A DNA stretch of 64,000 nucleotides from a virus: the IMG/VR virus record IMGVR_UViG_3300030333_004348, positions 1-64,000 of that record. One strand, 5' to 3'. Below the pieces are notes generated by a model. That model did not search any database. It was not told where the DNA came from and saw nothing but the letters and a program-made list of their open reading frames with translations. The position numbers and the translations under genes are program-made. Below are positions 40,219 to 61,800 of this stretch, piece after piece. Within the stretch, counting starts at the first letter, position 1. Each line of letters starts with the position of its first letter.

Positions 40219-43200
40219 TTGAGAGAGTACGAAGAAGATTTAAATCCTAGGCAAGATCCCGGTAGTGCGATAGCTAAGTCTTTAGGACAAGCTGTAGCAA
40301 CTATGGGACTATTTGTAGGAGGAACTATTCTTGCAAATATGGGATTTAAAAGAGGTAAAAGTGCTATCTTTAAATCTATGGCTCAGCATAGCAAAGGATT
40401 TAGAGATGCGGCTAAGTACGCTCAGAAAGAAGGGGACTCTTTAACAGCTTTTTTAAGTAGAGCCAATTTCCAAAAGGGATCAGTTATGGACAGTGTGGGA
40501 GGTCTAGCTGATTGGATGCACACTGCAGCTAACAGTGCAAGATACTCATCTATAAAAGAGTCTTGGGCTGGAATGAGTAAAATAGAAAGGTATAGAAATT
40601 ATAGATCATTAGGAAGAGCGGGTAAAAGCGCAGTGCACAGTGGCATGGCTGCAAGTTACGCTAAAGAAACTGCTTTTTTCTTTCCAGTTATCTACGCCCT
40701 AGATCATAATATAGGTAAATTTGGAGGAGGACCTGATACAAGAGAAAGGCCTGCGTGGTATAATATACCTGGCCATGCTAAAGAAATGGCTAAATTTATA
40801 CCTATGTACTTAGCTGGTGATGCTATATTCAGGGGAGGAAGTAAAGTAGTTGGTGCTGGTTTTGGAATGCTAGCAGATTCTTTTGCTAAAAGTATACCTA
40901 AAGGAGTACAATCTGGAGTTGCAGAAACTATTAGTTTTTTTAATAGTGGAAAATACTTAGATCAAGAATTTATGGGAAGGCCTATAAAAGAGTGGGGATC
41001 AGAATTAAAATCAAGTATGGGCGCTTTTGCGCATGCAGTTGGACCCGGGAGAAAGAAATTAGTTACAGCTACCAAAAAAACACAGTCAGGATACGAAAGG
41101 ACTGGAAATAGTATTCGAAATATTTATAAAAGAGCAGTAGAAGATTTTCATGAAAAGAAAAGTCATCTTTATAAAGTGTCCTTAAGAAAGTATAAACAAA
41201 GAATGCAAAGAATGGATAAAAATTCTGACTTTGCAGTTAGAGATAATTTTGATGATTTTATACACTTTATGGGAACGGGTAGCGGAGAAAGTTTGTATGC
41301 AAGAATCATGGGAACTACAAACTATGCGGGTTCAGGTAGGAGTTTTGTACATAAACAATTTTATAATGAATCTGATAGAATGCCTTATATGGCAAAATTA
41401 CTAGGTTTACGAAGAGCTCGTGGATCAGATTTTAAAGACAAGGATACTCTAGGTAGTATTTATGATACTTTAAAAAAGAAGCATGGAAGAGAGGGAAAGA
41501 AAAAGCTATTAAAAGAAAATAGCAAAGATGAATTTATAGATAATTTAGTATCTAGAAATATGTTTATACATGAAGGATCAGGTAAGCTGGTGGACTTAGC
41601 TCCCATGAGCGGGAAGTATTGGTCTTCAAAAATGTTACACTCTAAGCCTTTAGTATTAGGTGGAAAATTTTCTATGGCTGACTTATTTCCGTTTAAAGTA
41701 ATGGCTGCGGATCAGCAAGCTTTTCATAGAATAATACCAATGGAAGAGTTTGCAGCTATAAACCCAGCTAATCAAACTCAAGCTTTTAAAAACAGTCCAT
41801 GGGTAACTCACTCTGGTATGGGCGGAAGATCCAAGGTTCACCCTAATATTTATAGATTTAATAAAGAGGTTGATGGACTTGGATTATTAACAAGGAAAGC
41901 AGGTGATTTAAATTATAATTTGTTTGACTATCAAGGTGGTGCATGGGATCAGATAGGAAGAGATTTAAAAGCTGGATTAGTTAGTGATTCTCCTAAGCTT
42001 GCAAACGTCTATATTCAAGGGTTAATAAGGCAGCACACTACTCCCAAAGATAGAATGTCTACTCCTAGTGATAATCCAATTGTTAGCTTCATACAAAGAA
42101 ATTTTAGTTTATTAGATAATGAAGGTATTACTCCTAGTTGGTTTGGAAAACTTAGGAAGTTTATGCCAGATAATATTAATAGCCTACTAGATAGTAAAAG
42201 TAGTTTTCCATATAGTACTGGTTTTGCAAAAAATACACTTTCTGATTTAAAATCATGGGGGAAAGGTGTCGATGATAATGTTCTTGGAAGTAAAAGTGCT
42301 TCGCATAGGATAGCAAATTTATTAGCTAGAACAAGAACTTATGGAAATAAAATGTCTAAAGAGTCTTTTAACGAAACTCTATCTGAAGATAGATTTATGG
42401 GAAGAGTTTTAGAATTTTTAGATAATCAGGGTGTGATTCAAAAGTCTTCGCAGCATGAAAGATTTGATGCTAATGCTATATTAGCAGATGATGATGCTTT
42501 AATTGGAATTGCATCAGACTTGTTTAAAAAATCAAAGGATTCTCCGATTAAAGTATTTGGAGAAGATAAGGCTATTGATCGAATAATAGAATCTGTTAAA
42601 ACAACAGGAAGAGGACTAGCAGACAGAGGGGGAGTAGAAACCCCAAAACAAAAAATTAAAAGATTTATTTATGAGTATGCAGTGCATCATTCTAATCTAA
42701 ATAGACTAGAAGAAAATCATATAGTCAGCTTATTGCGTGGTGATTTGCAACAAGCAGCTACTGAGGGAATTGTATCTTCAAAACAACTAGCAAAAGTTGA
42801 TTTTGGAATGTTTGCAGATAAATTAAGATACAGATTATCAGGAGTTGTTCCAGAAAATTTATTAGATCCTGAAGTTGGAGGAGTTTTTAGCACAGAAGCA
42901 ATTAATAGAGTAAGTAAATCTATAGGAGATAAGCACCAATCTTTTCTTAATTTAGTTAAGACTGACTTATTAGACCGAACTGCACTATCAGGAAAAGGAT
43001 CAGCTATAGATGAGTTAATGGCCCAGACAAATACTTTCGATACAGTTTATGCCGCTAATAGCTCTTTTGTTGTAGATGACGTTGTTAGAGCAGCAAATCA
43101 AGTAAGAGATGCTAATCCTTTTGTCGCTTATCCTGCTGCCCTTAAAGATCAAGCGGGACTTGGCATGGGATGGGCTCTACGTACAGTTAATAATATTACG

Positions 43201-46200
43201 AGTTTTACTGGGCTCGGATGGGATCAAGCAAAGCACCCAGGAGTAGGAGATGTCGCAGCTTTATGGGGCAAAAGATTAGGAGCTTTTGCTTTAGGAAGTA
43301 TAGCTTATAATGCTGCAGATACATTTACGGATACGTCAGGTCTTTTTGATTGGACATTTTTAGATGAAGGAATAACAGTAGGTGTCGCTGATCAAATGGT
43401 TAAAGCTAGAATGATGGCTGGCTGGGCTTATGATAAAATGGGAATAGATAATGCCGCGCGTTACATGGAAGGTCTTATGCCTGGCTCTACCAAAGTATTA
43501 CCTGGAGCAGCGGTTGGATACGCTGCTGGAGGTATTAAGGGAGCTATATTAGGTGGGTTAGCAAATGCTTATTTACAGCCTCAACTTGCAGAAGGTCCTT
43601 TATCTTTCTTAGCAGCTCTACCTCCTTTAGCACCCTTTGTTACAGATATGACTAAAGATTTTAAATCTTTACAAAATATATATGAAGGAACAGAGCTACT
43701 TCCAGTAAGAAAAGGAAGAGGTTGGACTTTAGGCCTAACTCCTATAGCTGGAGGCAGAATAGAAAGATATGAACCGGGATGGTATCCTAGATTAAAATCT
43801 CAGTTCCAAGCTGGTCCTGAGTTGTATGGATCAAAACTAGAACAATTTTTAGCTAAAGATATTCCACTAGTCGACTTTTCTTTAATGGATATAGTAGATC
43901 CACACTACTTAGAGAAAAAACAATATCAGAATAGGCCTTTCCATGAGCCTTCTACCGTATTTTCAGAAGTCCCTTTAGTTGGGCCCACTCTAGGAGCTAC
44001 AGTAGGTCGTTTGTACAATAAGCTACATCCTATGGCTTTCTCAGGAGAAATGCATGCTAATGAAGCTAGACAAGCATATATGAAGGGTCAATCTTTTAAT
44101 TGGAAGGGAGAAAGTTTAGGAACATATGGACCCCAATATATGGGCTTTATGGGGGATTTTTCAGAGCAGGGCGCTGATGGAAAAAAAGCTGTAATGTCTC
44201 AAAATAATTTAAAACCTCTAATAGGAGAACAAGTTTATAAGGGTTGGATAGAGCCTCTAGGTCTACCTGGTTTTATTACTTCAGCTATGTTATGGGGAGG
44301 AGATGAGCCCTTTACTGATATTCCAGTAGCTCAGAATGCAAATATATTAGATTCTCATGCAAGAACTTTTTGGGATCAAGGTTTTGGTGATTTAATGGGA
44401 ACTACTGAGTTATACAGAAGGGCTGTTCCTAGGCCTCGTACTAGTTTTGAATCAATTAATATTTTACAAAATCAAATGCCAGGATGGATGCCTGAAAACT
44501 TTCAACAAGGTGATCCTTATTGTTTAACTCCTGAGACTTATGTTGAAACATCTTCTGGACTAAAAAGAGCTGACTCTATAAGTGAAGGAGATTTAGTAAG
44601 AACTTTACAAGGCAGATATTTTCCTGTTTCTGCAACTAAAACTAGGAAAGTAGATGAAGATATATATGTGATTACCATAAATGGATTAGAAGACTTCCCA
44701 ATCAGAGTAACAGGTGGGCATCCATTTTATATAGATGAAGAATGGAAATTTGCAAAAGATTTAACAGAATCTGATAAAGTTACTTATCCATTACTTAATA
44801 TAGATTTACCTTCTTCTGTCTCTGTTTTAACGGATGGAAGTGTAGCTGTAACTGCTTCTTTAGCTTATTTATATGGATTATTATCTAGGTGGTCTGATCA
44901 TTCTAATCCTACAAACTTAAGATCTGATATTCCTGAAACTACTGAACTAGAAATTAAACAATATAGTGAATCATTATTAAAAAATAAAATTGATTATGAA
45001 ATGATTCACCACTTTCAAAGATATGGACCTTCTAAGCACTTTGGAGATGCGGATCTTCCAGTACTATTAAATTACTTAAAACCTTTTTTTACAGTAACTG
45101 CAGATAAAACATTAGAGTTTGCTGTTCATACAAAAAATGCTGCATACAATATATGGTCCTTGTTACTGCAAAACAAGATAGTTTCTAAAATAAAGTGTAA
45201 TAAAATTATTATTGAAGGTACTTATGCAGTAGAAGTTGCGTTCTTTATGGGCATGACTCTGAACTACAGAACTCCTGCTTCAACTCCTTGTACATTTGAT
45301 ATGAATAAAAATACAACAAAGCACGGTCCAATAGTCTACTTAGATATAGCTTCTATAACTAAAGAAAAATATAAAGGATTAGTGTATGCAATAGATGTAG
45401 GCGAAGACGCAACCTTCACAGTACCAGGAGCAGCTGTACATAATAGTAAGATAGCAAGAGGTGAATTACTTTTACCTGGAAAGTCTTTTGAAAGTTTTTT
45501 TAATCCCAAAATAACATTCCCTACTGGTGCGTCGCAGTTAGGTAATACTCCTTATGAGCAGGCATTACATATGATAGGTCTTGGGGATTTTGCTATGGGC
45601 AACAACCCTGGTACAGATGATATACTAGAAGAAGGTACTCAAATTCACGAAATGGTTCAAAGTCAATTAGTACAAGCTGGTCTAGTATCTCGGGTAGAGG
45701 CGCTGGTTGCTGATACAGAAAATAATATAAAAGGTTACGTGGATGCCATGTATAATGATCCACGGACTGGAAAAGAATTACCAATTGAGATTAAGAGTAT
45801 TGGGGGTGTAGGTTTGTATAAACTTAATGAACCCAAATGGAAACATAAAATTCAGTTAAACACTTATATGGCTATGCTAGGAGTAACTAGTGGTAAACTC
45901 TTATACGTCTCTCGAGACGATCCTTCACAAACTAAAGAGTTTACTGTACGTTTTAATCCTAACCTTTGGGAAAGTACCAAAGGAGATTTAGCCCAAGCTA
46001 GGATGCTAGCAACTGAATATTTAGAACAAGGATATGGGCATGCTATGGAAGGTTACTCTTACTTAGACAGGCTACAAGTGTTACTAAATGCATCCCCCTA
46101 CTCTAGAAAATTTAGAGAAACTCAAAAGCTCGTACAGCATCAATTAGATCAGGGATATTTATCTCCAGAAGAAGAAGAGCAGTTTACTACCTTAGGGAAA

Positions 46201-47562
46201 CAGCATCAGTCTATGCTAAGAAAATATCAAATGTACCCTAGAAGATTCCAGGTATCTGATTTATTAGACCCTGATACAGAGTACCAAAATTTATCTGATA
46301 ATGAGAACATACAACCAGCAAGTGATTATAATATTTTTGAAAGAATAGTAGGATCGGTTTGGGAAACAGCAACACACTTAAGGTCACCAATTCACACAAA
46401 ACTAATTGGCCATTATTCTCCAGAAGAAACATATGAGAATATGATGGTTAGAGGAGATTTCGCATCTTGGACTAGACCTATAGAAGGCTTTGTTAAGCCC
46501 TATGGAAGAGGCTTAAGGGCTGCAGATACACCGTTACAGGGAGCTATTTCTTATGGAATGGGAGGAGCCCTTCTAGGAGGAGGTATACCTGGTGCTATTT
46601 TTGGTACTGTATTCGGCGGAGTATATGGTAGTCTGCATGGAATGTATAGAAGTATGACTGGAACGAATTACACTCCTGATAGCTTTAAAGATAGAGTAGC
46701 AATGCAAGAGTATTTTGATAAAGTTGAATACGCAAGAGCACTTCAAATGTATAAAACTACAGGTAATAAAGAATGGAGAAGAGAAATCACTAGTAATCCA
46801 TATGGATGGATTGAAACGGGAGGAGGACAAGCTTTTAATGTTCCTATGCCTAGTGCGTCTATTGGGTACAACAGTAGAGTAGCTAATCAAGCTTATAATA
46901 CAATAGGAAGTCCAGATAGAGGATTCAGATCTCCCTATGGAGGTCAGGACTCTCAACGTAGTTTAGATTTTGATCCGGACGTTAATATGTATAGTGCATT
47001 TTCTGCATTAGCTCCGTGGGACAGACCCTTTTGGACAGCATTTATGGATACACCTGAAAACAAAAGAGCAGATGTGTTAAATGTAGTAGATAAACAAATG
47101 GGAGATATGCTACAAATATACTGGGGCAAAGGAGAAAATGTAGCAATGCCTAACATGGGAAGCTACTTTACTAATAATTATAACCCATCAAACCTACATC
47201 CATTAATGGATCCTACCGTTAATATAGAAGACTACCAAGTAGTAACTGCTGAGGATAATGGATTAAACGCACACGATTTTGGTTTAGGATGGCGTGATCA
47301 AATGAGAAGGATAGCTACTAATCCTTTTGCTATAAAACCTGTAGATATAGAAGCTCAAGGAGTTTCCCCTTCTACGATAAGAAGTAATTTAAGTCAGGGA
47401 GAAATTAGAGATACATTAAGCAAACTACTAGAAAGAATGGGATATGGGGGAGCTACAATTAATGTCAGACAGATACCGTCTAATAGCTCTGATACTACAG
47501 TAGTAATAAATGTTAAAAGAAGTTCAACTAATGACTTAATAGATCGGATGGGAGGCATTTAA
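40219..47562 (+). CDS. Giant virion protein with PD-(D/E)XK nuclease and intein
   Basis: A 2447-residue precursor starting at TTG 40219, with AAGGAG eight bases upstream. Gly/Ala-rich hydrophobic segments occur near residues 20-45, 1095-1130 and 2110-2145. A Cas4/RecB-like PD-(D/E)XK domain spans about 1800-1900: His 1810 (EGTQIHEMV), Asp 1842 (KGYVDAMY), Glu 1857 and Lys 1859 (LPIEIKS), Gln 1879 and Tyr 1883 (IQLNTYMAM). Residues 1435-1742 are an intein located just before the C-extein SKIARGELLLPG. Position after the chaperones is that of a tape measure protein, yet no continuous coiled coil is seen. It could be injected with DNA. Confidence 0.7.
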   Translation: MREYEEDLNPRQDPGSAIAKSLGQAVATMGLFVGGTILANMGFKRGKSAIFKSMAQHSKGFRDAAKYAQKEGDSLTAFLSRANFQKGSVMDSVGGLADWMHTAANSARYSSIKESWAGMSKIERYRNYRSLGRAGKSAVHSGMAASYAKETAFFFPVIYALDHNIGKFGGGPDTRERPAWYNIPGHAKEMAKFIPMYLAGDAIFRGGSKVVGAGFGMLADSFAKSIPKGVQSGVAETISFFNSGKYLDQEFMGRPIKEWGSELKSSMGAFAHAVGPGRKKLVTATKKTQSGYERTGNSIRNIYKRAVEDFHEKKSHLYKVSLRKYKQRMQRMDKNSDFAVRDNFDDFIHFMGTGSGESLYARIMGTTNYAGSGRSFVHKQFYNESDRMPYMAKLLGLRRARGSDFKDKDTLGSIYDTLKKKHGREGKKKLLKENSKDEFIDNLVSRNMFIHEGSGKLVDLAPMSGKYWSSKMLHSKPLVLGGKFSMADLFPFKVMAADQQAFHRIIPMEEFAAINPANQTQAFKNSPWVTHSGMGGRSKVHPNIYRFNKEVDGLGLLTRKAGDLNYNLFDYQGGAWDQIGRDLKAGLVSDSPKLANVYIQGLIRQHTTPKDRMSTPSDNPIVSFIQRNFSLLDNEGITPSWFGKLRKFMPDNINSLLDSKSSFPYSTGFAKNTLSDLKSWGKGVDDNVLGSKSASHRIANLLARTRTYGNKMSKESFNETLSEDRFMGRVLEFLDNQGVIQKSSQHERFDANAILADDDALIGIASDLFKKSKDSPIKVFGEDKAIDRIIESVKTTGRGLADRGGVETPKQKIKRFIYEYAVHHSNLNRLEENHIVSLLRGDLQQAATEGIVSSKQLAKVDFGMFADKLRYRLSGVVPENLLDPEVGGVFSTEAINRVSKSIGDKHQSFLNLVKTDLLDRTALSGKGSAIDELMAQTNTFDTVYAANSSFVVDDVVRAANQVRDANPFVAYPAALKDQAGLGMGWALRTVNNITSFTGLGWDQAKHPGVGDVAALWGKRLGAFALGSIAYNAADTFTDTSGLFDWTFLDEGITVGVADQMVKARMMAGWAYDKMGIDNAARYMEGLMPGSTKVLPGAAVGYAAGGIKGAILGGLANAYLQPQLAEGPLSFLAALPPLAPFVTDMTKDFKSLQNIYEGTELLPVRKGRGWTLGLTPIAGGRIERYEPGWYPRLKSQFQAGPELYGSKLEQFLAKDIPLVDFSLMDIVDPHYLEKKQYQNRPFHEPSTVFSEVPLVGPTLGATVGRLYNKLHPMAFSGEMHANEARQAYMKGQSFNWKGESLGTYGPQYMGFMGDFSEQGADGKKAVMSQNNLKPLIGEQVYKGWIEPLGLPGFITSAMLWGGDEPFTDIPVAQNANILDSHARTFWDQGFGDLMGTTELYRRAVPRPRTSFESINILQNQMPGWMPENFQQGDPYCLTPETYVETSSGLKRADSISEGDLVRTLQGRYFPVSATKTRKVDEDIYVITINGLEDFPIRVTGGHPFYIDEEWKFAKDLTESDKVTYPLLNIDLPSSVSVLTDGSVAVTASLAYLYGLLSRWSDHSNPTNLRSDIPETTELEIKQYSESLLKNKIDYEMIHHFQRYGPSKHFGDADLPVLLNYLKPFFTVTADKTLEFAVHTKNAAYNIWSLLLQNKIVSKIKCNKIIIEGTYAVEVAFFMGMTLNYRTPASTPCTFDMNKNTTKHGPIVYLDIASITKEKYKGLVYAIDVGEDATFTVPGAAVHNSKIARGELLLPGKSFESFFNPKITFPTGASQLGNTPYEQALHMIGLGDFAMGNNPGTDDILEEGTQIHEMVQSQLVQAGLVSRVEALVADTENNIKGYVDAMYNDPRTGKELPIEIKSIGGVGLYKLNEPKWKHKIQLNTYMAMLGVTSGKLLYVSRDDPSQTKEFTVRFNPNLWESTKGDLAQARMLATEYLEQGYGHAMEGYSYLDRLQVLLNASPYSRKFRETQKLVQHQLDQGYLSPEEEEQFTTLGKQHQSMLRKYQMYPRRFQVSDLLDPDTEYQNLSDNENIQPASDYNIFERIVGSVWETATHLRSPIHTKLIGHYSPEETYENMMVRGDFASWTRPIEGFVKPYGRGLRAADTPLQGAISYGMGGALLGGGIPGAIFGTVFGGVYGSLHGMYRSMTGTNYTPDSFKDRVAMQEYFDKVEYARALQMYKTTGNKEWRREITSNPYGWIETGGGQAFNVPMPSASIGYNSRVANQAYNTIGSPDRGFRSPYGGQDSQRSLDFDPDVNMYSAFSALAPWDRPFWTAFMDTPENKRADVLNVVDKQMGDMLQIYWGKGENVAMPNMGSYFTNNYNPSNLHPLMDPTVNIEDYQVVTAEDNGLNAHDFGLGWRDQMRRIATNPFAIKPVDIEAQGVSPSTIRSNLSQGEIRDTLSKLLERMGYGGATINVRQIPSNSSDTTVVINVKRSSTNDLIDRMGGI
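44521..45444 (+). other. Intein with degenerate endonuclease region
   Basis: 308 residues. Block A is CLTPETYVETSSGLKRADSI; block B is FPIRVTGGHPFYI, with the TxxH-type motif and HPF. Block F is KGLVYAIDVGEDATFTV, and block G is AAVHN, followed by Ser 1743. The central 200 residues contain LAYLYGLLSRW where a LAGLIDADG motif (block C) would be and AVEVAFFMGM where the second would be. The acidic residues are missing, so the homing endonuclease looks decayed. Splicing would join GDPY to SKIARGE. Confidence 0.85.
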
Positions 47563-50500
47563 TGGCAGAAAAATCAGATAAAAGAATTGATGAAATTTTA
47601 GATGATGCTACCAATGATAAGTCTTTAGAAAGAAGAGGAGGTAGTGCGATTGCAGCATTGATAGCGTTACCTTCAATGTTAGGAATTGTTAGTTCTCAAA
47701 GTCAATGGATTTATAACGGAGGACTTCAATCGTTTAGAGAAACTATAGCAAGAAGGCTAGGAGACTTATTTGCTGCTGCAGAGGATAATGCCATAGTAAA
47801 TTCTATGTCAGGCTCTAAGCCTATACAAGTACAAGTTAAAAATCTTAAAGAAGAACTTTTAAATAAAGCTAGAAATTCTGCAGGGGCTGAAACATTTAAG
47901 AAAGCGTCAGCTATACCAAACTGGGCTCAATCTGCGGAAGAATTAGCTAGAGACAGAGAGGCTGCTTTTCCTTCCAGAAATATGGTAAATGAAGTATCTG
48001 CTCCTGCAGAATTTCCATCTGTTAAACAGCAATTAGATTTACCTGTTAATAATGCTCAAAGAGCTTATAATATTATGACTAATAATATAGTAGGGGCAGG
48101 TTCTGGGGTAGCTGAAAATGTATTTAGAGTATCAGGCGAAATGACTTCGGATGATATATTTAAAAATATTAATGCCATGCTGGGAGACTATACAACAGGT
48201 CTTACTCCTTCTGAACTTGCAAATGGAGGCAGTAGCGCTAGTGTAATAAATGAAAGAATGGCAAGTTTAGAACAAAAGCACTTAGCAATACTAAGAGCGG
48301 CAGGACATCCAGAGTTATATGACTCTACATTTAGTCACACTGCATACGCAAAACAATTAAGTAATGGGTTATCTACTTATCAAAATCAGATTGCTGATTT
48401 AAAACAGCAAGTTAATAGATTAAATGAATTAGCTACAACAGCGTCTAATCAGAAACAAAGACGAGCAGCTAAAGCTCAACTTAACTTGCTAGCAAAAAAT
48501 GCAGGTCTTTCGCCTACTCAGTATATCCAAACTATCAACTCCATGTCTGTACGTGTAGAGTTAACTTCTATACTTAGAGGGGATATACCTTTTCCAAAAG
48601 CTACAGTTGTTATTGATATGGGAAAACATAAGTCTTCTATTAAACAATCTTTTAATATTGAAAGATTTGGAATGTTTCTTCCTCATAGAGGAGCTCAAGT
48701 ACATAATACAGCACTGCTAGTTCAAGGAACTACAAATGCTGTCACTGCGACCTTAGCTGAAATGCAAGATGCATTCTCTAATGTTACTAAACAAATTAAT
48801 GATTTATTAGATGCAGGATTAGAGGGTTATCAGATAGATCAAATGAGTGCTCATACAAGAACGGTTTATAGAGAACTAGTTGGACCTCAAACCGCTCACT
48901 TACAAGATGTAATGAGAGGATTTAAAGTAATAAGCGATGATTTTAGAAATCTAGCAGGAGAACGTCCTGACTTTTTCTATAAAATGCATGCTCTAGCTAA
49001 ACAATCTTTCTTTACTGACTCTATGACGTACAACACAGAGACACCTATAATTGCGTTTGATATGGAGTTTAATTCTCCTACCTCAAGTACTAAAGGTTCA
49101 CAGCTTCAAACTAGAGATGCACGAACTAGAGTATTTTGGATGAACTACATTGTTAAAAAGGGCGGATCAGACGAAAAAATTTATAATCATTTTATACTAC
49201 CAGAAAATTGGGAAGATGTCAGGCAGAGTGCAAGATTATTTACAGCAAGACACCAAGATCCTTCAGGCTTTCAATTATTTGAAGATTTAGTTAAAACTTT
49301 TAAAGAGGCTCAAACTGATATAGATAGTGGGGCTAGATTTGTAGATGTTAAAACTCATGGTTTAACTCGTGCAAAAGAAAGAATATGGAGTGAATGGGGT
49401 AGTATGGTGGAGATTGCTAGAAATGCATATAAATCTCCTGATGGAACAATTGCGTGGCTTGGTCACAATATTGCTAATGCAGACTTACCAATATTAAATA
49501 AAACTGTAAGCAGAGTACTAGAAAACAATAAAGACTTGCTTAGTGCAGATGAAATTAGATTATTAGAAAGATTAAAACTAGATACTAGTTCTCAGAGTTT
49601 AGCATCTAAGGGTCTAGTTATGGATACCTATGCTATGGCCAGGGCTGCTTTTTTAGATGTTGAAAGAGTACAAAGTGCTAGTCTAGAAAATAGTTTTGAA
49701 GTAATTATGAATCAATCTGTTGCAGAAATTAATCCTGAAAAAGATTACATAAAAGGAGATACGTGGACTAGGGGGTTGTCAGATGCAGTTAAAAGATCTA
49801 AGGGAAGAATTAATAATGAAGTTAATAAATATATAAATGAGCTTCCTAAAAATGTTAGATTAGGAATAAAAAACTGGATACTTCAAAATCCTGAGGATGT
49901 TATAAACACTTTTGGACAACAAGGACATCACTCTGCTCCTTTTGATACTAGAAAGTCTTTAATACTTAAAGATTTATTAAAATGGAAAATAGATAAAATT
50001 AAATCCTCTAACCCAGAGTTGTATAAGTCTATTACTCAACTAGGTAACACTGCACAACAAATCGTAGAAGGTAAACGTTTTGCATGGTATCGTAATATAG
50101 ATTTAGCTGATGCTAGTTCTTTGTATGATGTACCAGAACGACCACAGGGACCCGAAGAATTTGGTAAAAGAATTTTTTCACATTTATTTGCATTTACACC
50201 AGCAGGAGCTGCAGCAGGTAGAGGAGGACTATTTGGTCCAGAAAATTATCTACCTTTTGGACAGTATACTAATTTGCAGAAACAAATGTATCAAACTGCA
50301 AGTTCTAAAACACTATTACCTGGTCTAGAGTCTGCAGAGATAGCTGCTTCAGGCGGACAAATGCCTGTTGTACAGAAAAGTATAGATGCTACTTCAGGGG
50401 ATAGTTTATTTACTACTAGTTTACAAGCAACTATTTCAAGAAAATTTAATGAATATCAACAGCGTCTTGGAAGTTTAAATGCACCTGTTGCAAATAGATT

Positions 50501-53500
50501 TAATGTTATGACTGCCTATTTACCTGATCATAATAGTATCCTTGCTCAAGATACTGCTTTATGGGCTAATGAAAGCGCACATCAATTAGCTAGGCACTTT
50601 CCAAAAGGAGCAGAAGGAACTCATCCTGCTATTTATAGTAAAAAAGCACAAGATATTTTTACAGCTATAAGTACTAGAGGAGCAGCTTCATTTTCTCAAG
50701 ATCGTAGAACTAAAGCTAAAGCTTTCTTAAAAGATTTAGGAATAAATAAAAAAGAAACTATTACTGTCAGAGAATTTTTACATAAAGCTCACATGCCTGA
50801 AGAGATATTAAATATGGTTGATAATGAAACTATAAGTCTTGGACGCGGCAAATCTAGGATTAAAATGGGTGATCAACTATTAAAAGATGTTATCCAAATG
50901 GATGGAGATAACATGATCATGCAGCTTAGATTTCAAAACTCTTATAAAGATAGAGTAAATACTTTAATGGGTAAAAATAAAATTAATGTTCTTGAAGCAG
51001 GAAGTCCTTTATTGCTAGAAAATGAATTTAACGTTGATGGACCAAATAAAAAGTCTAGGTATGATATTAACAATCCTTTAAAATACGCAGCTATTCTTGA
51101 TCAAATAACTTTTGATTATGATAAAGGAACTTTTATCTACGATATTACTCCGTTTGAAACTCCAGGTTTTGCGAAGATAGTTGATAGTGGAAAAATATTT
51201 AAAGGAAATATACATGGTATAGGTAATAATCTTAGTTTTGGTCAAGGCATTGGTTTAGTATTAGCTGCCAAAAAACCTAATATGGCAAATATGATAGATA
51301 TTCATATGCGTAGATCTTTACTTAAAATACACCAGCAAGATCTGAGTGTTTTTGAGCAAAAAAGACAGATTAAGAATATGTTAAAAGAAGCTTTTAATGT
51401 AACTGATGAAGAGTTTCAAGCTGTATTTAATCTTACAGAAGGGAAACCTGCAGCGGGTCAAAGATTTAAAAATCCTATTGTAATGGTTGAGCTTGTAGAT
51501 AATTATAAACTAGGTTTAGGAAGTAAAGATATAATGAATAAAGTTTATAAGATGCTATCAAGTGCTGGAATAACTCATGCTGAACTTAGAAAAAACTTTA
51601 TTAAACAAAATCAAGATATTCTAAAAAAATATGGAATAGACAAAGATATAAGAAGTGAACTAGGGAGAGTGTATGATAAGGCTAGAGCTAACCAAGAAAA
51701 GGTTATATTATCTATGGCCACCAACTTTGATGCTTCTACATCAGAAGCTAATGTTATTAATGAAATGCAGAGAATAGTTAGAAAAACAGATGTAGCATTA
51801 TTTGATCCTGTTATAGGGGTAGTTGGAGATGAAATAGATGTGAATAAATTACAAACTGGAAAGCTTTATGATGCAGAAGGAAGACTAGCTGCTGGAATTA
51901 AAGTAGAAGCATTTGCTACAATTATGCAGGGAGAGTTTTCAGTAGCTGAAGACTTTATGGACATTAGAGATCCTTTAAAAAGAAGTGTTGATGCTCATGG
52001 TATTCCGCTAAACAAAACATTTAGTATTTGGCAGCAAATGATTATATATAATAATTCTAGAAATAATGAAGTATTTAGAGATGCATTTATGAGACACGCC
52101 ATGTCAACTTCTGGTAGATATGATAAAAATGTAAAGAAAGCTTTACAAGTTCATCTAGAAGCAGCAGCTGCACTACAAGATGGATATAATTTTGATAAAA
52201 TAAAATATAAAACTTTATCCTATGAAGAAATGAAAAAAGATATAAGACATTTATCAAAACTTGATTTAAGTAAATTAAATGCTGATAAGTTTACAGCTAA
52301 AAATATAGAGCAAATCTTACTAGCTAGAGGAGCTTCAGAAGCTGATGCTTCTTCTTTAGCAGCTGAATTAACAGATGATATATCTTTAAAATTATCTCAA
52401 AGCGGAGTAGTAGGAGGATTACTAACGGCAGAATCTTTCGAAAATATGAATGTATTTAGAGGATCAAGTAAATTTGATTTTGTTAAAATGGAATTGTTAT
52501 CTAAAGAAAATAAAGCAATGCTACAGAATGCTCTAGATGCATTAGGTGATTCTAGATTAGACTTAAAAAACACAATAGATGACATAAATCTAAAAGGAAG
52601 AACTAAACTAGGTGCAGAGATTAGAAATGTATTAAGAGACTTAGCAAAAAGAAATCCAGGCGAACTGAAAATGCTTGAAACAATGTTTAAACAGTTACCT
52701 GGCTCATTTATCGATCCTTTAGATGGTATATTAATGCCTCATATACCAACAAGTAATCCTATATATTTAGCAGAAGAACAAAAATATTTATTAGCAGGAA
52801 CCTCAGCTAATAAAGTTGAAATGGAAAAAATTATTACAGATTTTAATGATGAGCTTAAAAAAGTAGTAGATCCTAGAAGAGGAGGAATAACAGAAAAAGA
52901 TGTAGTAAAATTAAAAGGAATGTATGATAATCTATTTGCTGATATAGCTCCAGAAGTTGTTAAAGGTGTATACGGCGGAATAAGTAGTGGAGTATGGAAA
53001 GCTAATCAGTTATATGGAAGAGGGCAGCAGTATGCTAAAGCAGTAGATTCTGTATTATTAGCTAAGCAATCAGTTGGCGCTATGATTGCTAAATATAAAA
53101 CTGGAGATGATAGCTTTGTTAGAAGCAAGGGTTTTAAGTCTTGGCAAACGTTTTTAGATTCTCATATATCTAATTATGGATCAGGAAAATCAGATCCAAT
53201 AGTAGAAGCTCTTACTAAATTAAAAGATAAAGTAGGTATGAATCAGCTAGATGATGCTATTTCAGAAAATGCTAAAAAACTTAATTTAAGTAAAAGAGAC
53301 TATCTTAAAACTGCAGAAGGTAAACATTATCTTGATATTAGAAAAAGGTTACGCAGTGCTCCTACTTTAATTGACAGCTTAATCGATGCAACTAAGTCAA
53401 TTACGTATAGAGATGTGCTTTCTGGTATTACTACTGGAGGTAGTAGAATTGGAAATCTAGCAGAAGGAGGCTATTTAAGAGCAGCAGGGTTAGGTTTAGG

Positions 53501-55487
53501 TGAAAACTTTATTGCTTCATCTCAGCTTGCCTCTTCTATTGTAAATGGTGATCCATTTGAAATCATGATGGATTTAACTAAAGGAAATGATGCAGCAGAT
53601 CATTGGAGAAAACTGTTAACAGGTAGAACACATTTAATAGATACGTTAGCTCGTAATCCAATGTTTGAAAATAAATTAGGTTATATGTTCGCCAACACAT
53701 ACGTTTATCATGATAAGTTATTTTCAGATATGGGAGTTAAACCCGCAGAGTTAACAAAGATAGTAGCAATAAATGGATTAGAACTAATGATGATGCGTGG
53801 TGACTATGATGGTGACCTTGTTATGAGAATGATGCAAACTATTAGGCCTACTTCTAGTAATAATGATGATTTTAGCAAAGCTATATTTAAAGAAAGAATG
53901 AGAATTATAGAAAGTATGAGAATGAGAGGAATGGAAATGGGAGGAGGTGCCCTGGAATTTAGAGGACTCGATTATAAAAATATTGCAGACTTAAATGCAG
54001 GAGCTATGGGATGGAATTACGATAGACATCTAATTGGGGAACTAGGCAATGATGATGTTGAAAAAGTACTAGCAAGACAATTAAATGAAATAGTAACAGG
54101 TATAGCTACAAATCATGCAGACGAGACTTTAAAAAACAGAGGTTTAACTTACATGGTACAGCAGTTGCTAACGGGTCCTATAGGTGAGCAACAAAAACAG
54201 TGGGATTTGATGTACAATGGAAATACTTCATCCCTTAAAACTGATGTTGTTGACTTTTTAAAATTAAAACTTACAGATCCTACAATGGATGAAGATAGTG
54301 TGAGAGGTCTTTTGATTGATTTAGGATATAATGAAGCTTCTATGGATGGCGCAGACTTAAAAAGAATTGGAGATAGGGCTGTAAGGCAAGCTGATGATGC
54401 TTGGAAAATATTAAATTTACAAGCTGACTTTAAAACTTTTAATCCAATTACAAAAGAATTTACACCAACTCAAGCATATAGAAATGTAGATTTACTAACA
54501 GATTGGATAAGGTTATTTACTCATGAAGTTCCTATTGAGAAAGCTAAAGGTGCAGGCATGATTCCTGATATTATGGCTACTGTAGCAACTAAGATGCAGT
54601 TTCATGCGGGTAGTATTAGTGAAGATCAAAGTAGACAAATAGCTTTAAACATTTATGATGGATTAGGTATTAGTGGAGCAAACTTTGCAAATCTTTATAT
54701 CGATCCTAGCTCCGATATTTTTTCTGGCGGGTCTATGCAAGAAGCTAAATTACAGGCATCTAGTATAAAAGAACAATTTGTAGCGAGTGTGCAAGCATCT
54801 ATGCATTTAAATAAAGTGCATAATACATTAGTAGGAAGTGGTATGAAGGTAGGAAATATTAATGCTACACTAGCTAGTAGAAATCCTAGAGGAGCCATTT
54901 ATGGAGCATTGCTTGGAACAATGGGTGAAGGAGCAGATAGATGGATAGGGAATGAATTAAGTCAAATAATGTCCCAACAAGATCTTTCTATGATATCGAC
55001 CGTAGATGACTTTGCCAGTATTGCGTCTCACGAAATGGCTAGTCAATTACCAAAAATGGCTCAAAGGTCAGGATTAGAAACTTTATCAAAATTTGGAAAG
55101 GGAATGATAGAAGGTATATCACATTCTAAGTGGACAAAAAGAACTGCAGTAGGTTTATTAGCTTTTTCAATAATGGATCCCAATACAAATTCTTTACTGC
55201 TTCCAGATCAGAGAGGGCAAGGAGAAGAAAATGACATACCTTCATTAGCAGAAATTAGTAGAGGGTATCGAAGTCGAGAGGTTTCTATGAAAACAACCTC
55301 CCCTGTTTTAATAGACAGGCTTCGCCAAGCAGCTGGATTACCTACATATATGGGATCCACAGGAGTGAGGAGTGGTTATGTTCCGCCTCCGCCCTCAAAT
55401 ACTATTAGACATAATAGACAGCTTAGAAGAAATAATCCTGCTAATCTTCATGAGTTTTCTAGACAAATTGGAGGTGTAATGAAATAG
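47562..55487 (+). CDS. Giant virion protein with DEDDh exonuclease and RNAP-like motif
   Basis: A 2641-residue protein overlapping the previous stop by one base. The DEDDh exonuclease motifs are FDMEFNSP (Asp 500, Glu 502), WLGHNIANADLPIL (Asp 641) and HHSAPFDTRKS (His 790, Asp 795). Towards the C-terminus are ARNPMF (Arg 2031) and MRGDYDGDLVM, with Asp 2081, 2083 and 2085. These fit the R-x-P and D-x-D-G-D signatures of the double-psi beta barrel in two-barrel RNA polymerases (YonO, QDE-1, crAss-like virion RNA polymerase). I could not identify the second barrel's lysines. It is probably virion-packaged. The intervening parts are helical, without other known motifs. Confidence 0.6.
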   Translation: MAEKSDKRIDEILDDATNDKSLERRGGSAIAALIALPSMLGIVSSQSQWIYNGGLQSFRETIARRLGDLFAAAEDNAIVNSMSGSKPIQVQVKNLKEELLNKARNSAGAETFKKASAIPNWAQSAEELARDREAAFPSRNMVNEVSAPAEFPSVKQQLDLPVNNAQRAYNIMTNNIVGAGSGVAENVFRVSGEMTSDDIFKNINAMLGDYTTGLTPSELANGGSSASVINERMASLEQKHLAILRAAGHPELYDSTFSHTAYAKQLSNGLSTYQNQIADLKQQVNRLNELATTASNQKQRRAAKAQLNLLAKNAGLSPTQYIQTINSMSVRVELTSILRGDIPFPKATVVIDMGKHKSSIKQSFNIERFGMFLPHRGAQVHNTALLVQGTTNAVTATLAEMQDAFSNVTKQINDLLDAGLEGYQIDQMSAHTRTVYRELVGPQTAHLQDVMRGFKVISDDFRNLAGERPDFFYKMHALAKQSFFTDSMTYNTETPIIAFDMEFNSPTSSTKGSQLQTRDARTRVFWMNYIVKKGGSDEKIYNHFILPENWEDVRQSARLFTARHQDPSGFQLFEDLVKTFKEAQTDIDSGARFVDVKTHGLTRAKERIWSEWGSMVEIARNAYKSPDGTIAWLGHNIANADLPILNKTVSRVLENNKDLLSADEIRLLERLKLDTSSQSLASKGLVMDTYAMARAAFLDVERVQSASLENSFEVIMNQSVAEINPEKDYIKGDTWTRGLSDAVKRSKGRINNEVNKYINELPKNVRLGIKNWILQNPEDVINTFGQQGHHSAPFDTRKSLILKDLLKWKIDKIKSSNPELYKSITQLGNTAQQIVEGKRFAWYRNIDLADASSLYDVPERPQGPEEFGKRIFSHLFAFTPAGAAAGRGGLFGPENYLPFGQYTNLQKQMYQTASSKTLLPGLESAEIAASGGQMPVVQKSIDATSGDSLFTTSLQATISRKFNEYQQRLGSLNAPVANRFNVMTAYLPDHNSILAQDTALWANESAHQLARHFPKGAEGTHPAIYSKKAQDIFTAISTRGAASFSQDRRTKAKAFLKDLGINKKETITVREFLHKAHMPEEILNMVDNETISLGRGKSRIKMGDQLLKDVIQMDGDNMIMQLRFQNSYKDRVNTLMGKNKINVLEAGSPLLLENEFNVDGPNKKSRYDINNPLKYAAILDQITFDYDKGTFIYDITPFETPGFAKIVDSGKIFKGNIHGIGNNLSFGQGIGLVLAAKKPNMANMIDIHMRRSLLKIHQQDLSVFEQKRQIKNMLKEAFNVTDEEFQAVFNLTEGKPAAGQRFKNPIVMVELVDNYKLGLGSKDIMNKVYKMLSSAGITHAELRKNFIKQNQDILKKYGIDKDIRSELGRVYDKARANQEKVILSMATNFDASTSEANVINEMQRIVRKTDVALFDPVIGVVGDEIDVNKLQTGKLYDAEGRLAAGIKVEAFATIMQGEFSVAEDFMDIRDPLKRSVDAHGIPLNKTFSIWQQMIIYNNSRNNEVFRDAFMRHAMSTSGRYDKNVKKALQVHLEAAAALQDGYNFDKIKYKTLSYEEMKKDIRHLSKLDLSKLNADKFTAKNIEQILLARGASEADASSLAAELTDDISLKLSQSGVVGGLLTAESFENMNVFRGSSKFDFVKMELLSKENKAMLQNALDALGDSRLDLKNTIDDINLKGRTKLGAEIRNVLRDLAKRNPGELKMLETMFKQLPGSFIDPLDGILMPHIPTSNPIYLAEEQKYLLAGTSANKVEMEKIITDFNDELKKVVDPRRGGITEKDVVKLKGMYDNLFADIAPEVVKGVYGGISSGVWKANQLYGRGQQYAKAVDSVLLAKQSVGAMIAKYKTGDDSFVRSKGFKSWQTFLDSHISNYGSGKSDPIVEALTKLKDKVGMNQLDDAISENAKKLNLSKRDYLKTAEGKHYLDIRKRLRSAPTLIDSLIDATKSITYRDVLSGITTGGSRIGNLAEGGYLRAAGLGLGENFIASSQLASSIVNGDPFEIMMDLTKGNDAADHWRKLLTGRTHLIDTLARNPMFENKLGYMFANTYVYHDKLFSDMGVKPAELTKIVAINGLELMMMRGDYDGDLVMRMMQTIRPTSSNNDDFSKAIFKERMRIIESMRMRGMEMGGGALEFRGLDYKNIADLNAGAMGWNYDRHLIGELGNDDVEKVLARQLNEIVTGIATNHADETLKNRGLTYMVQQLLTGPIGEQQKQWDLMYNGNTSSLKTDVVDFLKLKLTDPTMDEDSVRGLLIDLGYNEASMDGADLKRIGDRAVRQADDAWKILNLQADFKTFNPITKEFTPTQAYRNVDLLTDWIRLFTHEVPIEKAKGAGMIPDIMATVATKMQFHAGSISEDQSRQIALNIYDGLGISGANFANLYIDPSSDIFSGGSMQEAKLQASSIKEQFVASVQASMHLNKVHNTLVGSGMKVGNINATLASRNPRGAIYGALLGTMGEGADRWIGNELSQIMSQQDLSMISTVDDFASIASHEMASQLPKMAQRSGLETLSKFGKGMIEGISHSKWTKRTAVGLLAFSIMDPNTNSLLLPDQRGQGEENDIPSLAEISRGYRSREVSMKTTSPVLIDRLRQAAGLPTYMGSTGVRSGYVPPPPSNTIRHNRQLRRNNPANLHEFSRQIGGVMK

Positions 55488-55831
55488 TGAAGACTATTAT
55501 TGAAATTACTCTACAACCCTTGCCATATGAACACAATGTTGTTAATCTAGCTGGCTACCTACAGGCTGTTATTTCAGAAATAACAAATTCTGCAACAATA
55601 GTCGATATAAATGACTTTGATTTTACAGATAAAATGTCTATATTTAGGTCTATGCGTCAAGCATCTCCTACACATCAGAACTCAAGTTTGTCTAGATCTG
55701 GAATCACTATAGGTGGATCAAATTCTATGTCTCCTCACTATCAAGCTTCTAGCTTGGTAAACACAGCCGCTGCACACAGAGGACATGGTTTTCCAATGAA
55801 TACAAACAATAATCAAGGAAATAGAAATTAA
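55487..55831 (+). CDS. Small protein between giant virion proteins
   Basis: 114 residues from GTG 55487, which overlaps the previous TAG; GGAGG lies about 12-17 bases upstream. The N-terminal half is alpha/beta (TIIEITLQPLPYEHNVVNLA). The C-terminal half is Ser/Asn/His-rich and likely disordered. It overlaps the next gene by one base. The role is unknown. Confidence 0.5.
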   Translation: MKTIIEITLQPLPYEHNVVNLAGYLQAVISEITNSATIVDINDFDFTDKMSIFRSMRQASPTHQNSSLSRSGITIGGSNSMSPHYQASSLVNTAAAHRGHGFPMNTNNNQGNRN

Positions 55832-58800
55832 TGGCTGTTAATTTAAATACAAATTCTTTACTTGATTATTTAAAATCTATACCTGGGTTTAAAGATGCAT
55901 GTTCTACCGCTACCTGTTTTGAAGAAAGAAAAGAACTCTATGAACAATATTGTGATGACCTAGGATATCATAGTTGTGCAGATCCTAATGGGCAATACTA
56001 CTACACAGGCCTAGCTTGGCAGAATACAAAACTTTTAGATTTATTAAAAACTCAAAGTCCTCCTTTTCATGAGACGTTTAAGTCTACTTCTAATTCGTCT
56101 AGTGCACAAGGAAATACTAGACATAAAAATGTATCCCCTTCTCAATTTACTAAAGAAGATTTATTTATTACATTGAGAAATTATATTGCAAATTCAGAAG
56201 GAGGTCCGGGAAGGTACGGAGGAGTAGATCAAACTTATAACGATGGTAATATTATAGATGATTATCACTTAGGATATTTTCAAATATCTGGCAAAAATAT
56301 AAATACTTATTTGAGATATTTGCAAAAATATATTGTCCAACCTGGAGCTACGCCTTCTCCTCAAGATATAAAATATCAAGAAGCTATTGATGAATGGCAT
56401 AGTTTAATTTTTGAAAATGCATATGAAGAGCTTAAATTTTCTATGGATGGAAATAAGGAGTGTTCTTTATTTCCAACAGTACTAAATGTACCTGAACAAA
56501 CTTTTTTACACTGCCTACATATAGCAGATGCTGTACATGGTAAACCTTCTCACACTTTTGAAAATTTAGTTTTACAAAATATAACTGGAAAACATGGCTA
56601 TTTGGGATCGAAAGGATCAGTACAACCCTGGTCTTTATCAAATATTCATACTAATATATATGTAAATAATCCAAATTTAAAAGCAGTAACTGCTTTCGAT
56701 TATTTACAATGGTCAGGAATAGATACTATTCCTAAAAAATGCACTACTCAAGAAGAATTTGATAAGATTTTTACTACAGGAGTAACTAGGAAAGCAGTAT
56801 ATGAAAGTGTAATATACCATGCCAAAAAAGCGTATAACGACACACAAAGCAGATTACATAAGTACTTTCCTGAATCTGCTATTGATAATTATTTTTCACA
56901 AAAAAATCTAAATGATTTATATTTATGTTCTGAAAAATATCAAATATATGGAATAGATACTTTATTTTCTAACATTAATCAAAATAATACAACATTAGCT
57001 ACAGTAAATAATGTTGTTCCTTCTGCGAGCACAAGTTCATACAGCTCTCCGAATAAAGTAACCGCTGCAGCTCTAAGCACTGTTGTTAATGCAGATGTAC
57101 AAAAAAGATATAGCGAAGTATCAGTAGATCCATTATTATATAAATATGGAATAGGAGCGGAAGAAACCGGCTTAACTTATATCGGGGATATTCTAATGGC
57201 AGTACCTCCCGTATCTTTAAGATACTCAGAGCACAACCAAAGTACAGCTATAGATACATTAAGAACGTCAGGTGATCCATTATTTACTTATAATAATACA
57301 ATACCTAGAATTGATATGACATTAATGTTTAATGGAGCTAGGGCTATAAATGAACAACTGAGACCTTTAGTTGCTATGTTTCATCGCATGCCTTTTTCTA
57401 CTATACAAAATCATAGTGTGTGGGATATGTGGATTGGTAGAAGAGAATCCTTTAATACAGATTTAAAAACTAATCCTGCTGGAAGTTTATTAAATAGATT
57501 TGCTCCTATACCAGTATATCTAGAAAGTATAAATGTATCTACTATTCCAGGATTTCCGAATAGTGTTCAAGCACATATTTCGGTGGTAAGAATGAATAGA
57601 TCGCCATATGGTGTTTCTGCTAGAATGTGGAAGTATTGGGAAGACGCTATGGCAGAGACTAAACTAAAAACGGTAAGAACTGCTAGAGATTCTACTATTT
57701 GGAGTACAGATAGAGATGAAAAAAACGAAGTAGATAAAATTTATATTGTAGATTCGGCTATGAAAAACCATATAATTGAGCTAGAAGATGGAGCTAGCAC
57801 AGGAAATAAAAATATGGATGAAACATTAACTACAAAATATCCGCAAGAATCTGTTCCTTACAAATATCAATATAGAAACTTACTATGGGATGATGGATAT
57901 CCTAATAATCTAGTTCTTTCAGGAAGTAATACTTTAGGTAAAAATATATATGGAAATAATAAAGACCCATTAATACATTGGCCTGTGTATAGAGAAGAGC
58001 ATAATAGAGATTTATTTTTAACGTATAAAAGTGCTAGAAAATTTTCAGATAAACTTAGTATATTCAAACAAAGACTAAAGGAGTTAACTGAAAACTATAG
58101 AAAAATACAAACTCTAAGTGCTCAAATTAGCACTATGAGTCTAACTGATCTTTTAGATGTGTATAAACCTATAACAGAAATGACTTTAAAGGATACTTCT
58201 CAACTATTAATTGATAGTATGTCCGCAGTTAAAGTTGGAAAAGACTTTTCAGATAATATAAATGCTGCATTTAAGAATATAGCTTTAGAATTAACTCAGG
58301 ATAGTGCAGGAAATCAACTTCCTATATTTACAGATATTGTTAATTATTGTGATAAATATCTAGACAGCAATGGTAATGTTATTAAAGATGAACAAACTTG
58401 TGCTGCTGAAGGTGGAACTTGGCAAACAAGCGGTACGCCTGGTTTTAGAAGTCCGGTTCCTCCCTATGATTTTATTCCAGTACCCTTAGCCTCAACAGAT
58501 GAAAATGATTTTATTTATGTGGATGCTAACGGAGAAATAACAAATTCTTTTGAAGTATTTTTAGACTGGTTAAACGATGCTAATAGAGCAGTTGGTATCT
58601 GTGAAGAAGATCCTACCTATGTTACTAAAAAATCATGTAAAGATGCAAAGTATACTTGGAATGCTCAACCAAATAGTGACGAAAAACGAATAGCTTTATG
58701 GGAAAAAAATAATGCTATATACAGCGCATTTTATGATAATATGGTAAATGATCCTCTAGGTTTGTTAGGCTTAGAAGATATAGGATCTAAATGGAACTAT

Positions 58801-61800
58801 GATACCGCAGGAATACAGTTATCTTGGATAACAGATACAGATGACTTACTTAGTTATAAAGAAGACATAGATTCTTTAGTAAAAGATGATCAGCATAAAC
58901 CTACTAAAAACAATAGGGCATCGTTTCCGTATTTTTATCATTTTCAATCCGTAGTACAATCAGTAAATTATAGTTTTACAAATCAAGTTGTTCCTTTATT
59001 TACTGCCTCTTCAAATCTGCCAAGTTATCAACATATGGGTATTTCAAATCCTACTGTAAGTATTGTTTTAAGGACTAGGGATGAAAGAATACACAAAGCT
59101 TTAACAGATATGAGAGAAACCGTACAAGAAATAGGAAATCAAACATTAGCAGGAAATACAAAACTAGTTGGGTTGGGAACTGTAGATGTTAGCGGAAATA
59201 TATTAGGACATTCTTCAGATAGAAAAGATAAACGAAATCAAGCTTTAAATTTACCAGGAAGTTCCGGGTCTCTTTCTGGAAATTTATTAAATTCTTTAGG
59301 ATTTAGCCAAAGTAGTGTCCAGAACTTAACCTCAAGAACTTTAGAAGGTTTTCCCGGTTGGTGGGAAATAAGTTTAGATTTAATAGCTGACACTCAAAAT
59401 ATTAGAATTATAGAAAATTTAAGTGCTGTTACTGTAGAAAAAATACCAGATGGAATAAACAGTTTAATGGACTCTGTATTTCCAGCTTATAAAGCAAATT
59501 GGGGATTACTTACACTGTATCAAAATGCTGCAAATAAAGAAGAATTTTTAAAAGATAAGCTAAAGAGACTAGATGAAATAAAAGCAGAACGTGAAGCTGT
59601 TGAAAAACGAGTAGAGGACCTTCCTAACACTATTTGGTATAAGTACACAGATTTAGGAATCTGTCAAGATTGGGGCAGAGCAGCTAGGGGATGGAATTAC
59701 GACTCAGACTTTGATGAGCAACCAGTTAGAGATGACTACTACAATGGCTCAAGAATAATAGATAAAATAACTAAAGAAGAATACAATGCATGTGCTAAAG
59801 AAGGAATTAATTGTGAAGGATTAAACCTAGGTCAATCTTGTGATGCAATGGATTATAACTGCCAGAGAACAATGCATGAAGCATTGGAAATGCCTGGATT
59901 AACTATAGACTGGGATGCATATGATAGAGCAATTGAAAATAGGGAAGATCCTAATCAACCATACGCTCCAAGCCCTTGGTTAGTGGCAGCAAAGTTTGAT
60001 GACTCACCTGAAGATGCAGGAGGTGAACCTAGTTACTGTGCTGCAACAGACGAATATGGTGTTGGTTTTTTTGAATGTTCGATGGCAGGTAGAATACATC
60101 ATCCAGAAGGAGATAATGATACTGATGCATGTCACGCTATAAAAGATCAATATATGCAAATAGATGCGACAACAGATCCTATTCGTAATAAAGATACTTT
60201 TGATTTTATGGAAGTAGACCTGTGGGATGTATGTAAAGATAAAAGCGGAAACGAAGTTACAGATGGATTTCGGTGGTTACATAATGGATCTAAACTAGGT
60301 AATTACTATCCAAACGGTATATGTTGGGGAGGAGATGTAAATGGTTGGGCTGGAGATACACCAACAGAATGCGAAAGCGGCGATGGAAGTAAGTACTGGG
60401 TAGGAACGAGTACTTTAGTGCATGATCCTAATGAGCCAGATAAAGGCTCATCTGGAGGGTATAAACTTGTTTGCCCTAATGGAGATAAAATAAGTACTTT
60501 TTTTGAGCCTCAGCTCATACGTCAGATTGATATAACAGGATTTCCAATAATACAAAGTCAAGCTATATGTGAAGATCCATGGCAAGATGGAAGTGGAAGA
60601 GACGCTGGTCTGTGGATTCCTGCTTCGACTCCTGGAATATGTACTCTTGACAAGTTAGAAGATGTTGCAATTAAATATACTGAAGACGATAATAATTGGG
60701 GCAATTTCCAAGCGTATACCTATCATAACTTTAGTAGCTTGACTCCTTTAGTAGGAGTTAATAGTTTTACTGAATGCTGTCAAGCGAATAACAGTACTAA
60801 TTCAGCCAAAGAAGCCGGAAAATGTTATGCTTACTTTAATACTTATACAGAACGAAAAGCACCAGAAACTATTTTTCCTATGACCCAGACTAAAATTACT
60901 GATGAGATGGCAGAAAAGCAAAGAAAAACCTGCCTAGAATGGATAGGATTAGGAGTTGATGCTAAGGTTGGAACAGGGCCTAAACCTAATAGAAAATTAA
61001 TTAATAATGAATGGACACAAGAGTGGTTCGAATGGGGAACTTCTCACAACGATTCTCTATTCTACAGTAAACCGGATTATATAACTGTTGATAGAGGGGA
61101 TGTTGCCTTAAAACAAGAACTAGAAAACAGTTTAAGAGATTTAACTGAAGAAGAAGTAGCAGTTAATGCAGATATAAATGCTATAAACCAACAAGTATCA
61201 AGTATAGTTGATCATTTAATTCTAGGAGAAGGGGAAGCATTAGTTATTTATATAAATCCAGAATTAGATGATATATTAATACAAATAACTGGTAATAAGT
61301 TAACTTCTGCTCAGCTTTACGGTATAGCAGAAGATAGAGGAGATTTATATCAAAAATTATTCCAACCTGTATTAGATGAAATGGTTCTTTGGCTACAAAG
61401 ATTAAAGGGTTGGGAACTCGATAAAATGAAAAATTATCCTAACTGGACAGATGAACATCCTAGAGAGTTTCAATTAACAGCTACTTTAGCTACGTATTAT
61501 ATAGACTTTTTAAAAAATTGTATCTATACTATTTCGGGAATAGCTAACAGTGACTATGGAAAAGATTTATTAACAACTCCAGGAAAAGCGGTTTCTTTAT
61601 TTCCAGGTTACTCTAGAGCAGCTGTAGAAGCTCAAAAGCTTGCAGTAGATCAACCTAGTGTTATACTACAAAGTATAATTCTAGGCAGTCAGCTACGTGT
61701 AGTATTCTATAATCTATTAAGAAGATCCGATTTTAGAACGTTCTTAGATGAGCAGGTAGTACCAAGAAATAAAGCTATAAAAACATTGAAAGACGCACTT

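Follow-up and report, generated by a model that had tools for sequence, protein, structure and literature searches.

Gene order and the tape measure position

The window analysed here covers bases 1-64,000 of a virus record that is 68,136 bases long. Profile searches of the window place genes for PhoH, terminase, portal, major head protein and tail sheath ahead of three giant genes in succession, of which the second (giant B) is the subject of this work:

40219..47562, + strand: giant A, 2447 aa, upstream partner; Cas4-like PD-(D/E)XK nuclease domain and intein; conserved across the lineage
47562..55487, + strand: giant B, 2641 aa, ATG start; highly likely tape measure position; exonuclease and polymerase-like motifs
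55831..64000 (continuing to about 67644 of the record), + strand: giant C, 3940 aa, downstream partner, hub-like

By its portal and sheath, the phage groups with Moorella phage MTATph1 and Bacillus phage vB_BauM_KLEB27-3 (the nearest portal relatives being metagenomic contigs of IMG/VR), and the A-B-C gene order is shared by those related records that are long enough to show it. BLAST aligns giants A and C throughout the lineage, giant B being the fastest-evolving of the three.

Giant B is located directly upstream of the baseplate-hub gene (giant C) and downstream of the sheath and tube genes. Giant C matches gp147 of Bacillus phage 0305phi8-36 (E 7.5e-12), in which orf147 is a gp27-like hub and the gene just ahead of it, orf146, has been assigned as the tape measure (PMC2147016). 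That assignment was based on position and tail length, with no direct test, and a homologue of orf146 was recognisable over the last 60 residues only (PMC2147016). Since giant C is a homologue of gp147 and orf146 precedes orf147, it is highly likely that giant B occupies the tape measure position, and the carrier of the exonuclease and polymerase motifs described below is then probably the tape measure protein. This position speaks for packaging in the virion, as the original prediction had proposed.

Record G007 (218,948 bases) is 0305phi8-36 by our own identification, based on its giant C, which has NlpC/P60 and M23 domains as in gp147, and on an RdRP-like gene that matches orf99. The 0305phi8-36 tape measure comes from the same contractile-tailed lineage, though only distantly related, and has the same position ahead of a gp27-like hub gene (PMC2147016), but it is without the polymerase motif, its RdRP-like polymerase being a separate gene (orf99). 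In G007 this stand-alone polymerase is found at 209484-211064 (L098; PF05183, E 4e-18), with none in the tape measure; a PF05183 search of the other 12 records found no RdRP-like gene.

Exonuclease and polymerase motifs in giant B

The original prediction had described the open reading frame 47562-55487 as a candidate two-barrel RNA polymerase fused to a DEDDh exonuclease, and both motif sets were recovered at the positions it gave. The full DEDDh set consists of D500, E502, D641, H790 and D795, while R2031-N-P2033 precedes the single D.DGD of the protein, i.e. DYDGD at 2081-2085 (D2081, D2083 and D2085). Only the spacing needs a small correction, from the predicted 48 or so residues counted from ARNPMF to 50 residues when measured from R to D. 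The features, with G030 being a relative introduced below, are as follows:

48999..49991, + strand: predicted DEDDh exonuclease region, residues ~480-810; motifs, conservation and best position of the relatives' exonuclease profile
49059..49067, + strand: exonuclease motif I, D500-M-E502; invariant in three sequences
49464..49484, + strand: exonuclease motif II, HNIANAD (D641); D641 invariant; aligned with GYNVHNFD of KLEB27-3
49929..49946, + strand: exonuclease motif III, H790-x4-D795; invariant
51114..51314, + strand: candidate second barrel (DPBB-B) with K1237-K1238, residues 1185-1251; 58% identity to G030
53604..53861, + strand: candidate catalytic barrel (DPBB-A), residues 2015-2100; 52% identity to G030
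53652..53660, + strand: RxP motif (R2031-N-P2033), from motif search; kept in G030
53802..53816, + strand: DYDGD, putative Mg-binding aspartate triad, from motif search; kept in G030
54135..54200, + strand: NRGLTYMVQQLLTGPIGEQQKQ block past the catalytic barrel; conserved with G030

In shuffled copies of giant B, D.DGD arises in 5.4% of cases, and D.DGD together with an RxP 30-65 residues upstream in 0.35%. The paired motif was sought in 626 open reading frames of at least 200 aa from related phage DNA and is confined to giant B and its same-position counterparts.

Relatives within the window family

Two relatives of giant B were found. The first, in record G004, is 39% identical to it and keeps all five DEDDh residues, the contig stopping at window residue 1829. 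The second was discovered by searching viral contigs for DNA that could encode [x]GDYDGD[LF], which gave 13 loci, one of which (L100) reads LARQPMFENK...GGDYDGDLVQRM; its record, G030, holds a full-length homologue of 2997 aa (L116) with giants of similar size as neighbours. Over the three main aligned stretches this homologue is 34%, 45% and 32% identical to giant B, and 31% overall (over window residues), with the identity rising to 58% at 1185-1255, 52% at 2015-2100 and 52% around motif III; 1185-1251 holds the highest-conserved 60-residue window of the pair. R2031, P2033, DYDGD and all five DEDDh residues are retained in G030. Given that about 23% of columns are three-way invariant, the rough probability of finding five out of five DEDDh residues invariant by chance is ~6e-4.

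No further relatives turned up when the giant B protein, or that of G030, was used as a tblastn query on 50,697 phage records. Scans of viral contigs, run with a single protein or with two sequences, returned G004 as the sole match, and a scan of genome contigs for giant B relatives found none.

D-x-D-x-D patterns are also known from calcium-binding loops, and D.DGD alone arises in some 5% of shuffled sequences; GDYDGD could thus be a surface calcium loop with a coincidental RxP. EF-hand-like loops, however, require G at position 6, where giant B has L. Moreover, R-x-PMFENK and GDYDGDLV are conserved together in G030 at a fixed spacing of 50 residues, and the same-position proteins of other phages match Pfam Rpb1_2, below its cut-off (see below). 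A calcium loop is judged very unlikely.

Same-position proteins in other phages

Both motif sets are found in six counterparts of giant B, namely gp34 of the Bacillus phage KLEB27-3 and the proteins of five metagenomic records (L091 (= G011), L092, L093, L096 and G015), with open-frame lengths of 2434-2531 aa. Gp34 (UNY39803.1) is annotated as 'structural protein', and no published analysis of it was found in the literature searched. All six have an N-terminal DEDDh set, as well as RYP followed by D-x-D-x-D at ~79-81% of the length. The latter occurs as DYDGD, DNDGD or DYDTD, so that the x and G positions vary while the three aspartates never do, which fits a metal site.

At the motif segment, KLEB27-3 and three of the four other counterparts scanned match Pfam RNA_pol_Rpb1_2, below the Pfam cut-off (E 0.015, at best 0.0011). 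A profile of four counterparts has as its sole PDB hits the largest subunit of the African swine fever virus RNA polymerase (E ~0.9), the alignment falling on RQP...ADFDGD. In addition, the KLEB27-3-type counterparts contain a trigger-loop-like segment, [TS]Q-x-x-I-S-S-K-(H/K), 140-183 residues past DxDxD, which resembles the start of the bacterial trigger loop (TQLTMRTFH); it was sought in giant B and in G030 and not found there.

The exonuclease is the more widespread of the two. RxP with DxDxD is absent from the giant B of MTATph1, G013, G008, G010, G009 and 0305phi8-36, and in MTATph1, G013 and G008 the exonuclease is kept all the same. Pfam RNase_T matches G013 (E 5.2e-8, above the cut-off) and also MTATph1, with giant B itself unmatched. 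As the set is invariant in the relatives, and the counterparts have either an RNase_T match or canonical motifs, the predicted DEDDh exonuclease of giant B is very probably real. On the portal tree the records with and without the polymerase motif are scattered, requiring 3 changes, a number that is also reached in 142 of 500 shuffles. The G010 counterpart (L071, 6848-10582) is only 1245 aa long and is without the polymerase motif, the C-terminal segment of the lineage being retained.

The counterparts that have an exonuclease without DxDxD also raise the question whether giant B is an exonuclease-only protein at the tape measure position, its polymerase-like region being decayed or unrelated and without catalysis. 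The lack of significant polymerase-profile matches in the window family points the same way. However, at 31% overall identity the RxP and DYDGD block is among the best-conserved parts and all three aspartates are kept, which decay would not predict. An exonuclease-only protein is therefore considered rather unlikely, though it is the strongest of the alternatives, and a predicted two-barrel RNA polymerase in giant B remains the likely reading of the C-terminal motifs.

Profile and structure comparisons

No link between the window family and that of KLEB27-3 was recovered by BLAST or by whole-length HHalign; MAFFT misaligned the two when they were aligned jointly, and this alignment has been excluded. 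Shorter profiles of the counterparts were slid along giant B instead. The catalytic-barrel profile has its best score out of 127 positions at 2001-2161 (25.1 versus 21.6 for the next site), a weak signal, and of 116 positions the exonuclease profile fits best on motif II. The motif itself accounts for part of this signal, so these scans are not independent of the motif search. The DPBB-B profile gave nothing sensible and did not pick out the K1237-K1238 block. The second barrel with its lysines, missing from the original prediction, thus has a conserved candidate that the counterparts' profile does not match; furthermore, K1237 and D2081 lie 844 residues apart, an unusually long distance.

None of the Pfam, PHROG and PDB profiles calls giant B, or its homologues in G004 and G030, a polymerase or an exonuclease. 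The predicted relationship to RNA polymerases was thus not borne out by profile comparison for the window family, which matches none of these profiles, and for the counterparts it is limited to the sub-threshold Rpb1_2 matches and the PDB hits at E ~0.9. A PHROG 'transcriptional regulator' match to residues 201-286 of giant B (E 2.5e-4) falls where conservation is poor and was taken as chance. In an alignment with known polymerases anchored on the motifs, giant B did no better than shuffled sequence outside of them; as the KLEB27-3 family was negative as well, the test is insensitive. AlphaFold models of giant B residues 1165-2364 (pLDDT 37.1) and of the L093 family (pLDDT 40.7) were unusable, there being too few sequences. 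The predicted catalytic barrel nevertheless finds support in the motif order, the conservation peak, the Rpb1_2 matches of the counterparts and the resemblance to F-RNP-VM...DFDGD of P23-45 gp96.

Comparison with known systems

The motifs of the positive controls, taken from their records, are FRNPVM...DFDGD in P23-45 gp96, NRRPDL...DYDGD in gp64 and YRIPNQ...DFDID in phi14:2. P23-45 and phages closely related to it are already known to have an RNA polymerase fused to the tape measure, a fusion that was termed previously unsuspected (PMC10770324). Gp96 is the closest known system, being a giant single chain at the tape measure with the same order of RNP and DxDGD (PMC10770324). Its polymerase, however, is N-terminal (DFDGD at 779 of 5002), whereas the motif of giant B lies at 79% of the chain; P23-45 has a non-contractile tail, and gp96 has a metallopeptidase and no reported exonuclease, whereas giant B has a predicted DEDDh exonuclease ahead of the motif. 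The word exonuclease does not occur in the main text of PMC10770324, and no paper on an exonuclease-polymerase layout was found in the literature searched. New with respect to the original prediction are the carrier of both, which is probably the tape measure protein, and the presence of the exonuclease also where the polymerase motif is absent.

Gp66 of phi14:2, a short-tailed crAss-like phage, is likewise a giant virion RNA polymerase with RxP...DxDxD (RIP...DFDID), but no exonuclease has been reported for it and beyond the motif no sequence similarity to giant B was detected. The single-chain two-barrel RNA polymerases YonO and QDE-1 have the R-x-P ... D-x-DGD order of giant B; they are not known from virions and have no exonuclease, and library searches gave no match between them and giant B. 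KLEB27-3 gp34 has the position, the N-terminal DEDDh exonuclease and RYP...DYDGD at 79% of the length in common with giant B, but is too divergent for a BLAST alignment with it.

Proposed role

Following these results, it seems that giant B, in a phage with a contractile tail, encodes the virion protein at the tape measure position, and that this protein combines a DEDDh 3'-5' exonuclease with a single-chain two-barrel RNA polymerase, a reading to which we give a probability of roughly 0.6, with fold, packaging, ejection and both activities predicted from motifs, conservation and gene position. The predicted exonuclease is in the N-terminal half, the predicted polymerase nearer the C-terminus. 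The protein would lie in the tail tube and enter the host ahead of, or together with, the genome, whereupon the polymerase could transcribe early phage genes on the incoming DNA, in the way that has been proposed for P23-45 gp96. Without being tied to transcription, the exonuclease may act during entry on either DNA or RNA.

The combination of a catalytic motif with a 3'-5' exonuclease on a single chain, found in at least seven same-position proteins, could also indicate a two-barrel DNA polymerase or a nuclease-coupled (proofreading) polymerase, comparable to archaeal PolD and its exonuclease subunit. However, relatives that have no polymerase motif still retain the exonuclease, the exonuclease is of the DEDDh type (which that of PolD is not), and all virion two-barrel enzymes known are RNA polymerases, so that a PolD-like enzyme is very unlikely. 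For the first of these reasons the exonuclease is probably not a proofreading domain, genome entry or the processing of host nucleic acid being likelier. Somewhat less improbable than a PolD-like enzyme, though still doubtful, is a tape measure that acts as an ejected multi-enzyme, with the exonuclease in most members and the two-barrel polymerase gained or lost between them, the two possibly cooperating on the incoming genome as a nuclease-coupled or proofreading polymerase of the RNA or DNA type.

If the combined RNA polymerase and exonuclease reading is true, this marine phage may deliver a transcription enzyme of its own into the host along with its DNA. The arrangement of P23-45 would then recur in a distant lineage with contractile tails, which would suggest that loading a polymerase into the tail ruler is a recurring answer to early transcription. 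Retention of the exonuclease even without the polymerase motif suggests that the tape measure protein, once ejected, has a part in processing DNA or RNA. The same layout occurs in KLEB27-3, a Bacillus phage in culture, which makes the idea directly testable.

Other features of the window

The intein of giant A (44521-45444, residues 1435-1742) lies just ahead of the Cas4-like PD-(D/E)XK domain (phrog_1706, E 5e-17), and the giant A of G004 likewise holds a similar intein. The large terminase gene (11560-13899) is probably intein-interrupted too, given a Hint/intein-like match at residues 139-234 (phrog_21587). Within the tail gene block, 36267-37112 encodes a 281-aa class II aminoacyl-tRNA-synthetase-like protein (PF00152, E 6e-20). 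The N-terminal part of a 1683-aa protein encoded at 30968-36019 matches PHROG 'major head protein' families, yet its gene sits past the tail sheath.
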